A DNA stretch of 64,000 bases from Microbacteriaceae bacterium (lineage in GTDB: Bacteria > Actinomycetota > Actinomycetes > Actinomycetales > Microbacteriaceae). The notes beneath the pieces were generated by a model, which saw only the letters and a program-made list of their open reading frames with translations, was not told the DNA's origin and did not search any database. How positions within the stretch are numbered: the first letter of the stretch is position 1; the number at the start of each line of letters is the position of its first letter. Positions 2 through 45,711 of this stretch are shown here, piece after piece. The position numbers were made by a program, and so were the translations under genes. The stretch is taken from the NCBI GenBank assembly GCA_031177985.1, contig JAPSJW010000001.1:124001-188000 (forward strand), read 5' to 3'.

Positions 2-2338
2 CCCTCGCACGCCCCTGCCCTCGGCGCCGCCGCCGAAGCCGCCGCTACCCGCGTCGTCGACTCCGTCGACAACGCGATCGCGACGCCCGAGCGGGAGCAG
101 CCGTACGCGGCGCTCGGCCTCAAGGAGGACGAGTACCTGCGCATCCGCGAGATCCTCGGGCGGCGTCCGACGAGCGGCGAGCTCGCGATGTACTCCGTCA
201 TGTGGAGCGAGCACTGCTCCTACAAGAGCAGCAAGATCTACCTCCGCCAGTTCGGCCAGAAGGTCTCGCCCGCCATGAAGAAGAACCTCATGGTCGGCAT
301 GGGCGAGAACGCCGGGGTCGTCGACGTGGGCGAGGGCTGGGCGGTCACCTTCAAGATCGAGAGCCACAACCACCCGTCGTACATCGAGCCGTTCCAGGGC
401 GCCGCGACCGGCGTAGGCGGCATCGTGCGCGACATCATCTCGATGGGCGCCCGCCCCGTCGCCGTCATGGACGCCCTCCGCTTCGGGGCCATCGACGACC
501 CCGACACCGCCCGGGTCGTGCACGGCGTCGTGAACGGCATCTCGTTCTACGGCAACTGCCTCGGGCTCCCCAACATCGGCGGCGAGACCTGGTTCGACCC
601 GGTGTACCAGGCGAACCCGCTCGTCAACGCCCTCGCGGTCGGCGTGCTCCGGCACGAGGACCTGCACCTCGCCAACGCCCGCGGCGTGGGCAACAAGGTG
701 GTGCTCTTCGGCGCCCGCACCGGCGGCGACGGCATCGGCGGAGCATCCATCCTCGCCTCCGACACGTTCGCCGAGGGCGGGCCCACCAAGCGCCCCGCGG
801 TGCAGGTCGGCGACCCGTTCGCCGAGAAGGTGCTCATCGAGTGCTGCCTCGAGCTCTTCCAGCAGGGACTCGTCGAGGGCATCCAGGACCTGGGCGCCGC
901 AGGCATCTCCTGCGCGACATCCGAACTCGCCTCCAACGGCGACGGCGGCATGGAGATCTCGCTCGACGAGGTGCTGCTGCGCGACCCATCGCTCACCGCA
1001 GAGGAGATCCTCATGTCGGAGAGCCAGGAGCGGATGATGGCGATCGTGTCGCCGGACAAGCTCGAGGGCTTCCTCGCCGTCACCGCCAAGTGGGACGTCG
1101 AGACCTCCGTGCTCGGCGAGGTCACCGACACCGGACGCCTCGTCATCCACTGGCGCGGCGAGAAGATCGTCGACGTCGAGCCCCGCACCGTCGCGGTCGA
1201 CGGCCCCGTGTACGAGCGCCCCGTGGCCTACCCGGCCTGGATCGACGCACTCAACGCGGACACCGCATCCGTTCTACCGCGTCCCTCCTCGGGTTCTTCC
1301 CTTCGCGAGCAGACGCTCCAGCTGCTCGGGTCGCCGAACCTGGCCGACAAGCGCTGGGTGACCAACCGCTACGACAAGTACGTGCTCGGCAACACGGCGC
1401 TCAGCTACCCCGACGACGGCGGCATGGTGCGCGTCGACGAGGAGTCGGGTCTCGGCTTCGCCGTCGCGACGGATGCCAACGGCCGCTACTGCCAGCTCGA
1501 CCCGTACGAGGGCGCTCGGCTCGCCCTCGCCGAGGCGTACCGCAACGTGGCCGTCACCGGCGCCACGCCCGTCGCCGTCTCCGACTGCCTCAACTTCGGA
1601 TCTCCCGAGAACCCCGAGGTGATGTGGCAGTTCTCGCGCGCCGTCGAGGGGCTTTCGGATGGCTGCCTGGAGCTCGAGATCCCCGTCACCGGCGGCAACG
1701 TCTCGTTCTACAACCAGACCGGTGACGTGCCGATCCACCCGACCCCGGTCGTCGCAGTGCTCGGCACCATCGACGACGTGGCTCGCCGCGTGCCCTCCGG
1801 ATGGCAGGACGAGGGCGAGAACATCTACCTGCTCGGCACCACCTCGCTCGAGCTCGACGGCTCGGCCTGGGCCGACGTCGTGCACTCCCACCTCGGCGGA
1901 CGTCCGCCCGCTGTCTCGCTCCCTCGCGAGCAGGCGCTGGCCGGGCTGCTCGCGGCCGGCGCGCACGAGGGGCTCATCTCCTCCGCTCACGACCTCGCCG
2001 ACGGCGGCCTCGCGATCGCCCTCGCCGAGGCGGTGCTGCGGTTCGGACTCGGCGCCCGCGTGTGGCTGGGCGAGCTGCTCGAGCGCGACGGCATCGACAA
2101 CGCGACCGCGCTGTTCAGCGAGTCGACCGGCCGCGTTCTGGTGACGGTGCCGCGCGAGGACGACGTGCGCTTCCGCGGCCTCTGCGAGGGCAGGGGCTAC
2201 CCCGTGCTGCGCATCGGCGTCACCGACGCCACCGCAGGTCTCGACGTGCAGGACGTGTTCACGGTGCCGGTGGACGAGCTGCGCGAAGTGCACCGGGCGC
2301 CCCTCGCCGCCGCCTTCGGCCCCGTCGTGGGGGCGTAG
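2..2338 (+). CDS. purL: Phosphoribosylformylglycinamidine synthase subunit PurL (5' end cut)
   Basis: This is the synthetase subunit of de novo purine synthesis. It converts FGAR, ATP and ammonia to FGAM in the cytoplasm with PurQ and PurS. The frame is open from base 2, and 778 residues are visible. The family motif [12 protein letters not shown] lies near residue 66, and the substrate region with ESHNHPS and GAATGVGG follows. [13 protein letters not shown] falls in the middle and a second AIRS-like half follows ([22 protein letters not shown]). The first ATG (188) lies inside the conserved domain, because [20 protein letters not shown] upstream is typical PurL sequence. The true start is therefore probably just outside the window, and the protein is nearly complete. 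No purQ or purS is visible here. Confidence 0.96.
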
Positions 2339-2354
2339 GGGCGGTCCGCGCGCG

Positions 2355-2414
2355 GCGAGTGGACCCATATCATCGCTCACGCTCAGCGCCCTCCGACGAT
2401 TCGGGTCCAGTCGC
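2355..2414. repeat. 60-bp imperfect inverted repeat, left copy (REPIN-like or terminator)
   Basis: Arms at 2355-2375 and 2394-2414 pair at 17 of 21 positions around an 18-nt loop. The core TGGACCC / GGGTCCA is perfect. The repeat begins 16 nt after the purL stop, so it could end that transcript. Its arms resemble those of the repeat at 3412-3471, which has the same 21-18-21 layout. Confidence 0.6.
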
Positions 2415-2521
2415 GGCGCCGTACCTGCCCCCGGGGCCGACCGCTCCTCCACAAGGGAGCCCCGTTCACGGACTGGAACGGACGGGCGCATGCCGGACGC
2501 CGGTGGTGCACAGTCCTCCGC

Positions 2522-3412
2522 GTGGGAGATCCGTATCCGCTGCCCGATCAGTTCAGGAAGGGCGCTTTCCTCTCGTCGGCCGCCGTTGCCGCCGGTATTC
2601 ACCCCGAGCGACTTCGGAGGCGAGACCTTCAGCATCCCTTTCACGGAGTCGTCGTCCCTGAGAGCGTCGACCTCACCCTGGTCGAGCGGGCGCATGCGGC
2701 CGCCCTGCTGCTCCCCCCGGGAGCGCATTTCAGCCACATCACGGCAGCCCGCTTGCACGGGATGCGGGTGCCGGGTGCCTCTCACGGAGAACCGCTGCAT
2801 GTCACGGCGTCCGGGATGCGGGCACTACGCGGCCGCGGCACCCGCGGTCATCGTACTGACCGCTCGATCAGCCTCGTCCAGCTCGACGGCCTGCCGGTTC
2901 CGTCGGCCCCCGAGGTGTGGATGTCTCTCGCGCCGACGCTGACGCTGCCTCAACTGGTGGTTGCGGGCGACGGGCTCGTGCGGCGCCATAGGCCGCTGTG
3001 CACGATCGCGGAGTTGCGCGAGGTCGTGCTCGGCAGTACGGGGCGGCGGGGGGCGATCAAGGCTCGGGCGGCTCTTCTACAGGTGCGAGGCGGGACCGAT
3101 TCGGCGCAGGAGAGCCGCCTGCGTCTGACGCTTCAGCGGCACGGCCTGCCGGAGCCCGAGGTCAATGGAGCGATTCGGAACGAGCACGGTGTTGTCATCG
3201 CTCATGCGGACCTGCTGTACCGCCCACAACGGGTCGCCCTCGAGTACGACGGGCGGCACCACATGACGGACTCGAGGCAGTGGAGTATCGACGTGGACCG
3301 CCTCGACGATGTCATGGAGCTCGGGCACCGCGTCATCCGTGTCACGGCCGAGACACTCGCGCGCGAGGCGACCCTGGTCGCGAAAGTGCGGCAGGCGCTG
3401 AGTCGAGGCTGA
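2522..3412 (+). CDS. DUF559 (Vsr-like) endonuclease-domain protein with AbiEi-type N-terminus
   Basis: The protein has 296 residues and a GTG start. The N-terminal part contains a winged-helix-like segment (AAVAAGIHPERLRRRD) and HFSHITAARLHGM, the kind of sequence found in AbiEi antitoxin-like proteins. The C-terminal ~90 residues fit DUF559 of the PD-(D/E)XK superfamily: HADLLYRPQRVALEYDG supplies the acidic residues, then HH and a late RVIRVT strand. Proteins of this type are common in Microbacteriaceae, but their role is unsettled, with DNA repair, defence or toxin-antitoxin function all possible. No partner toxin is adjacent. Two closely similar 60-bp inverted repeats bracket the gene, the right one starting on the last base of its stop codon. 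The domain call is fairly secure; the function is unknown. Confidence 0.75.
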   Translation: MGDPYPLPDQFRKGAFLSSAAVAAGIHPERLRRRDLQHPFHGVVVPESVDLTLVERAHAAALLLPPGAHFSHITAARLHGMRVPGASHGEPLHVTASGMRALRGRGTRGHRTDRSISLVQLDGLPVPSAPEVWMSLAPTLTLPQLVVAGDGLVRRHRPLCTIAELREVVLGSTGRRGAIKARAALLQVRGGTDSAQESRLRLTLQRHGLPEPEVNGAIRNEHGVVIAHADLLYRPQRVALEYDGRHHMTDSRQWSIDVDRLDDVMELGHRVIRVTAETLAREATLVAKVRQALSRG

Positions 3413-3471
3413 CGACTGGACGTGAATCGTCGCGCCGAGCGGCCCAGCACCGACGATGCGGGTCCACTCGG
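3412..3471. repeat. 60-bp imperfect inverted repeat, right copy (REPIN-like or bidirectional terminator)
   Basis: Arms at 3412-3432 and 3451-3471 pair at 16 of 21 positions around an 18-nt loop. The 3412-3432 arm matches the reverse complement of 2394-2414 at 18 of 21 positions. The repeat lies between the convergent DUF559 and permease genes, so it could terminate both. Confidence 0.6.
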
Positions 3472-3480
3472 CGCCCCGCC

Positions 3481-24035: not shown

Positions 24036-24094
24036 GCGAGGTTCCACTTGGGCCCCTGCACCGCACGACCGGTGGGGCTCAAGTGACACCTCGG
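24036..24094. repeat. 59-bp imperfect inverted repeat after the GH130 operon
   Basis: Arms 24036-24055 and 24075-24094 pair at 16 of 20 positions around a 19-base loop. The outer CGAGGT/ACCTCG pairs perfectly. It starts four bases past the GH130 stop on that strand and probably ends the sugar operon. Its layout resembles the 60-bp repeats at 2355 and 3412, but the sequence differs. Confidence 0.55.
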
Positions 24095-45654: not shown

Positions 45655-45711
45655 CGAGTCGGGAGTAGTCGGCGTTATGACGTTCTCGAAACCCCGACTA
45701 GTCCCGACTCG
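45655..45711. repeat. 57-bp inverted repeat after the giant surface protein gene
   Basis: Arms CGAGTCGGGAGTAGTCGG (45655-45672) and CCGACTAGTCCCGACTCG (45694-45711) pair at 17 of 18 positions around a 21-base loop. It starts 21 bases past the surface-protein stop, where it may end that transcript. It has the same general size as the repeats at 2355, 3412 and 24036. Confidence 0.65.

Follow-up and report, generated by a model that had tools for sequence, protein, structure and literature searches.

A DUF559-type nuclease gene of Microbacteriaceae bracketed by its own palindromes: a putative RAYT/REPIN-like or homing-like two-part system

Near the start of the analysed window (the whole stretch of 64,000 nucleotides from the genome of a member of the Microbacteriaceae), a gene for a DUF559-type nuclease stands between two inverted copies of a palindrome of about 60 bp, and further copies of this palindrome are dispersed in the same genome. 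In the comparison of many such loci we observed the pairing of nuclease genes with palindromes, sequences private to each gene, dispersed copies, empty sites, shared loss of gene and palindromes, and concerted change. On balance, we consider it probable that the unit in the window is a selfish two-part system of RAYT/REPIN-like or homing-like type with a non-HUH nuclease; binding, cutting and protein-driven movement are inferred. The locus contains the following elements:

2356-2413, + strand, left palindrome of the window class (58 bp; arms 2356-2375 and 2394-2413, 18-bp spacer)
2522-3412, + strand, DUF559/MTES_1575-type nuclease gene (296 aa, GTG start)
3413-3470, - strand, right palindrome of the window class (orientation opposite to that of the left copy; begins right after the stop codon)

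The arms read CGAGTGGACCCATATCATCG-N18-CGACGATTCGGGTCCAGTCG in the left element and CGACTGGACGTGAATCGTCG-N18-CGACGATGCGGGTCCACTCG in the right one. The first-pass annotation of this DNA had described two imperfect inverted repeats on either side of one DUF559 nuclease-like gene and a TGGAC core common to all four arms, and both descriptions were confirmed at these positions; its statement that the right copy, by its own limits, begins on the last base of the stop codon is also correct (TGA, 3410-3412). The two elements were additionally recovered as inverted copies by an unprompted repeat search (arms 2352-2413 and 3413-3474, 71%), and the arm motif has three matches in the window versus 0.26 expected, a number that none of 100 shuffles reached. 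A search of the window against Rfam gave no match. The neighbours of the nuclease gene, judged by reading the open reading frames, are purL-like and ABC-permease-like genes, and the same reading, without a DUF1814 model scan, revealed no AbiEii (DUF1814) toxin gene beside the window copy. Several genera have a DUF559 gene on the 3' side of purL (window 2338-2522; loci L106, L115, L096 and L117), with differing palindromes and, in one case (L117), with the DUF559 gene reversed. This place is either a hot spot for insertion or a long-standing residence of DUF559.

To judge from weak HMM matches, the protein would join an AbiEi-like half to a Vsr/EDxHD-like nuclease of the PD-(D/E)XK superfamily, and the two putative portions are located as follows:

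2546-3031, + strand, AbiEi-like N-terminal portion, of antitoxin or inverted-repeat-binding type (approximately residues 9-170; inferred via alignment to AbiEi-matching homologs)
3104-3391, + strand, Vsr/EDxHD-like C-terminal nuclease portion (approximately residues 195-290; D230, E241, H247, Q253 and D257 conserved)

Taken alone, the window protein matched DUF559/MTES_1575 only weakly (E 0.03-0.07), gave nothing significant with Pfam and NCBIfam, and was not matched by the PADLOC AbiEi models. Each of the two Pfam models, DUF559 and MTES_1575, was matched by 19 of the 29 homologs (best E 4e-9), and several homologs matched AbiEi antitoxin models weakly over approximately residues 10-170 (best 2e-7, PADLOC). 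The family alignment shows the conserved acidic and histidine residues of the Vsr/DUF559 nuclease, represented in the window copy by the five residues listed above. Among solved structures, the profile found PvuRts1I (4oq2, E 0.0045) and the mobile-intron endonuclease entry 3r3p (E 0.19), which we take to be I-Bth0305I; both matches are weak and lie in the expected region. None of the homologs matched Y1_Tnp, the only matches being to DUF559/MTES_1575 REase and Vsr-like structures. Since single-sequence structure prediction of the window protein reached a pLDDT of only 30, the domain boundaries rest on the alignment. The similarity of the palindromes was weakly related to protein identity by region (Spearman up to 0.19, for alignment columns 1-60), and therefore no specificity region is claimed.

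Copies of the palindromes were counted in the source genome (3.16 Mb, 24 contigs) by pattern and model searches. A search of the whole genome with the arms for copies at 18-base spacing, as proposed by the first-pass annotation, found the full 58-bp architecture with exactly this spacing six times, and the reversed-pattern control found none. The palindromes of the window class (contig:position) are:

C1:23815, solo copy
C7:22294, solo copy
C7:126355, copy of the window pair
C7:127411, copy of the window pair
C7:285081, solo copy
C9:170153, solo copy

All six are intergenic, and three of the four solo copies lie between convergent genes. The spacer is not conserved, and the arm positions vary independently and without covariation, which fits a protein-recognised DNA with two half-sites better than an RNA hairpin; the RNA-hairpin reading of the window element was rejected because of this absence of covariation.

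Besides the window copy, the source genome has four further DUF559-like genes. Three of these likewise stand between matched palindromes, each with a pair of its own, and the three classes (AGTCGGGAGTAGTCGGG, CGAGGTTAGGGTTTCGGCG and TCAGGTTTTCGGACGAG) are unrelated in sequence; in this genome alone, four palindrome classes are each paired with a separate DUF559 gene. A second class has six complete copies, of which four are solo and the other two flank its DUF559 gene. One of the solo copies lies in the window, and its class brackets the DUF559 paralog at C7:969610-970491:

45657-45709, no strand assigned, solo palindrome of the second class (AGTCGGGAGTAGTCGG...), between convergent genes

A palindrome of yet another class (CGAGGTTCCACTTGGGCCCC...GGGGCTCAAGTGACACCTCG) can be observed at 24037-24093 of the window; it matched none of the other DUF559 loci of the source genome that were examined.

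The link of the repeats to DUF559 genes, which the first-pass annotation had left to be checked, proved to be general. DUF559 homologs were found in 204 of the 299 family genomes searched, with at most eight scored matches per genome; to judge from gene content and from the presence of very small genomes, the family is most likely Microbacteriaceae. Matched left and right palindromes were present at 48 of 71 DUF559 loci versus 0 of 66 control genes (Fisher p 1e-19); this count extends a first set of 33 scored loci by 40 more. In the first 33 loci, palindromes with at least 17 of 20 arm matches occurred at 1.6 per kb in the DUF559 flanks, whereas elsewhere in the same loci they occurred at 0.022 per kb. 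In 25 of the 33 loci, the left copy matched the right one at no fewer than 13 of 14 positions, as against 1.5% of between-locus pairs, and left-right similarity within loci was far above that between loci, with none of 10000 permutations reaching the observed mean. The palindrome sequences are in each case private to one nuclease gene and one genome, and the total length of the palindromes is approximately 59-67 bp (median 63) regardless of sequence. About a third of the DUF559 loci had no detected matching pair.

Outside the family, all four homologs found in plasmid records had matched pairs (three from Arthrobacter and one from Tsukamurella, the latter belonging to a different order from the family genomes). 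A distant homolog from Brachybacterium, the only relative in one contig scan, had no flanking palindromes, and scans of viral records found no relatives of the DUF559 protein. Beside a DUF559 gene of one genome (L075 1315-1838, G318), six palindromes are arranged in tandem with a period of 94-95 bp and resemble the BIME clusters of REP elements. A segment of approximately 650 bp without a DUF559 match lies between two matching palindromes of a class designated B (L295, G422:C18:249633-250395), and for the class-B palindromes of G429 the prediction of a nearby DUF559 gene was only loosely met (L289, with degenerate flanks).

A covariance model of the window class found relatives in 143 of 398 family genomes. 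According to a simple GC-based gene call, 26 of the 29 places examined are intergenic (16 convergent, 9 tandem and 1 divergent), whereas random positions taken from these loci are intragenic in 84% of cases. The solo copies adjoin the 3' ends of genes, just past the stop codons. Several copies of a class were counted per genome in the genus g71, and about ten or more in G200. The Arthrobacter classes occupy 4 and 11 places, and the Tsukamurella class occupies 12 places in the replicons of one isolate and is absent from all the others among 72,556 plasmid records. The Tsukamurella copies that were examined fill short gaps after stop codons and have sharp edges. No target-site duplication was apparent by eye at these copies or at empty sites, where the flanks have diverged, and no transposition intermediate was seen. 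It is important to mention that the plasmid-labelled records of this isolate, Tsukamurella tyrosinosolvens NCTC13231 (NZ_LR134446-NZ_LR134468), carry core genes (purB, nusB, cobN, xerC-like) and are probably pieces of the chromosome.

The first-pass annotation had also raised the question of empty sites, and such sites were found, lacking in one case a complete cassette and in another a solo palindrome. In the genus g71, of which seven genomes were compared, five species possess both the cognate DUF559 gene and a number of palindromes of its class, and the other two (G142 and G355) possess neither. The gene forms part of a 1080-bp palindrome-gene-palindrome cassette between two genes; in G142 and G355 the cassette is missing, and an ordinary terminator-like hairpin lies between the same two genes. 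The empty cassette site holds no palindrome, and occupied sites hold two. The five carriers mostly have their solo copies at orthologous sites, a stability which indicates that movement is rare; in G142 and G355 the solo sites are absent or decayed. In the genus g76, G200 carries a solo copy that is lacking in G326, G423, G428 and G434, the flanks in G434 being 91-92% identical; at the exact site of this copy, G429 and G422 have a palindrome of a different class with the same architecture.

The repeats also act as recombination sites. In G288 and G197 a gene other than DUF559 lies between two palindromes of the same orientation (L173 and L182); in G072 (L187) this gene is gone and one palindrome is left, as recombination between the two palindromes would give. 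Two more rearrangement breakpoints in g71 coincide with palindromes (L206 versus L208/L209 and L210). At the site orthologous to L206:1577-1662, a different repeat (CCTTCGACAGGCTCAGGGACCG), which forms a long tandem array in G142, replaces the solo palindrome in G355 and G142 (L226 and L227). At the site orthologous to L085, where G200 has a palindrome, G077 has tandem repeats of approximately 115 bp with the motif CCCACATTCGTGC (L254).

Concerted change can be observed in same-site DUF559 orthologs with 55-70% protein identity (L118/L120, 70%; L093/L108, 69%; L092/L098, 61%): within one genome the left copy matches the right one at 16-18 of 18 positions, whereas copies from different genomes mostly match at 11-15 of 18, the close pair L097/L100 being intermediate (16-17). 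Both flanks therefore change together, while the site and the gene stay.

The main rival explanation is an autoregulatory one, in which the AbiEi-like half would bind the palindromes as operators of its own gene, the solo copies would represent a small regulon or decoys, and the nuclease would have other targets, e.g. phage DNA. AbiEi proteins are known to bind their own promoter at inverted repeats (PMC7319586), and one palindrome is often located close upstream of the DUF559 gene; however, an operator needs no equally similar copy past the stop codon, the solo copies follow stop codons and only one of those classified lies between divergent genes, the Tsukamurella copies fill post-stop gaps, and the empty sites and the turnover between species are unlike operators. 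We regard this explanation as unlikely. A role of some other enzyme, e.g. a Y1/HUH or other transposase that spreads the palindromes with DUF559 as cargo or as a protected resident, seems to us quite improbable. No transposition chemistry is known for a DUF559-type nuclease, and palindromes sometimes bracket other genes, such as the one lost in G072, but it is DUF559 that is repeatedly found between matched pairs, each time with its own class, and two g71 species lack the palindromes as well as that DUF559 gene.

The plain alternative of similar terminators given in the first-pass annotation, taken here as ordinary terminators that are alike by chance, draws on the position of all the palindromes at gene ends, on the hairpins in the window (-25.1 and -24.7 kcal/mol, z -3.9 and -1.4), and on the g71 cassette standing in place of a terminator-like hairpin; a stop of transcription may well be a side effect of the palindromes. 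Nevertheless, it fails to explain the gene-private sequences that flank dozens of DUF559 genes, a left-right identity that is absent around the 66 control genes. Moreover, no T-run follows either of the window elements, the arms change without covariation, and the copies come and go together with their cognate gene, so that we find this alternative scarcely credible. Terminator function may rather be a by-product of the palindromes, which may explain why copies at gene ends are tolerated.

The reading that we favour, a selfish system of nuclease and palindromes, can be set out as follows. The two parts would be the AbiEi-like/nuclease protein and, in the same genome, its private population of palindromes of approximately 60 bp. 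The protein would bind as a dimer to the two arms, of about 20 bp each, of its own palindrome class and would nick or cut it. Repair by copying from another palindrome or from a cassette would keep the copies of the class alike, and repair from a palindrome-gene-palindrome cassette could make a solo palindrome an occupied site; over time, repair might occasionally seed copies at new intergenic sites. Recombination between palindromes would delete or invert the intervening DNA. The proposal of the first-pass annotation that gene and repeats may form one small mobile or nuclease-targeted unit is supported by the dispersed copies with fixed spacing, the 48 of 71 loci and the empty sites, without data on binding or cutting.

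In REP/RAYT systems, single-copy enzyme genes are each flanked by their own palindrome class, which is dispersed intergenically; several independent classes occur per genome, and enzyme and repeat co-evolve (PMC3116915; PMC3733652). The DUF559 system resembles these REPtrons in having an enzyme gene flanked by its own class, further extragenic copies and several classes per genome. In contrast, its enzyme would combine a Vsr/EDxHD-like nuclease with an AbiEi-like half and is not a HUH tyrosine (Y1) transposase, its palindromes are approximately 60 bp long with arms of about 20 bp, its class arms share no GTAG tag (none is present in either window element), and its copies number about 4-15 where counted, not hundreds. 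The REPIN/RAYT analogy drawn in the first-pass annotation thus stands for the dispersed copies and the own-class flanks, but not for the nuclease or for the tag, and since the enzyme and the tag that define RAYT are absent, the system was not filed under RAYT/REPIN.

EDxHD homing enzymes act as dimers on a target near 60 bp (PMC3943268). These endonucleases (I-Bth0305I) are of a putatively related nuclease type, with a dimer target of about 60 bp; unlike them, the DUF559 system has no intron or intein, and its putative target is palindromic, brackets the gene and forms an intragenomic population. AbiEi proteins bind paired 23-bp inverted repeats, which are 3 bp apart for AbiEi itself and 13 bp apart, or approximately 59 bp in total, for its relative Rv2827c (PMC7319586); a palindrome of about 60 bp with arms of about 20 bp fits both the AbiEi/Rv2827c and the EDxHD homing precedents. 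With the AbiEi antitoxins (type IV toxin-antitoxin) the protein family shares a weak N-terminal similarity, and inverted-repeat binding is known for AbiEi, but the window copy has no toxin gene beside it, the protein carries a fused nuclease domain, and the DUF559 repeats are dispersed and stand at either end of the gene. The MTES_1575 Vsr-type REase domain (Pfam PF18741) is the one matched by the 19 homologs mentioned above; its type protein is a multidomain conflict protein of approximately 2000 residues, for which the accessible part of the source does not describe an association with palindromes (PMC3710099).

Our search of the literature on DUF559 with palindromes, inverted repeats or AbiEi, outside which most subscription literature lay, found no description of such a system. 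To our knowledge, no role has been assigned to DUF559 nucleases of this type. Whether DUF559 proteins with an AbiEi-like half constitute a large undescribed class of actinobacterial selfish elements, with private palindromes of about 60 bp and with specificity and sequence changing together, is in our judgement a matter that could fall either way, and there is an even chance that the system deserves a class of its own.

For these nucleases, which are common in the family, a specific DNA partner can now be read from the sequence. They are a candidate enzyme type for palindromic repeats without RAYT, e.g. the CGTC REPs, a published repeat superfamily said to be without a dedicated transposase (PMC3733652). 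The loci provide dozens of natural nuclease/target pairs from which sequence specificity could be learned, and a system for studying the concerted evolution of dispersed repeats. If the proposed reading is true, it would represent a second, independently evolved counterpart of RAYT/REPIN, in which cleavage of the homing type and repair replace HUH transposition.
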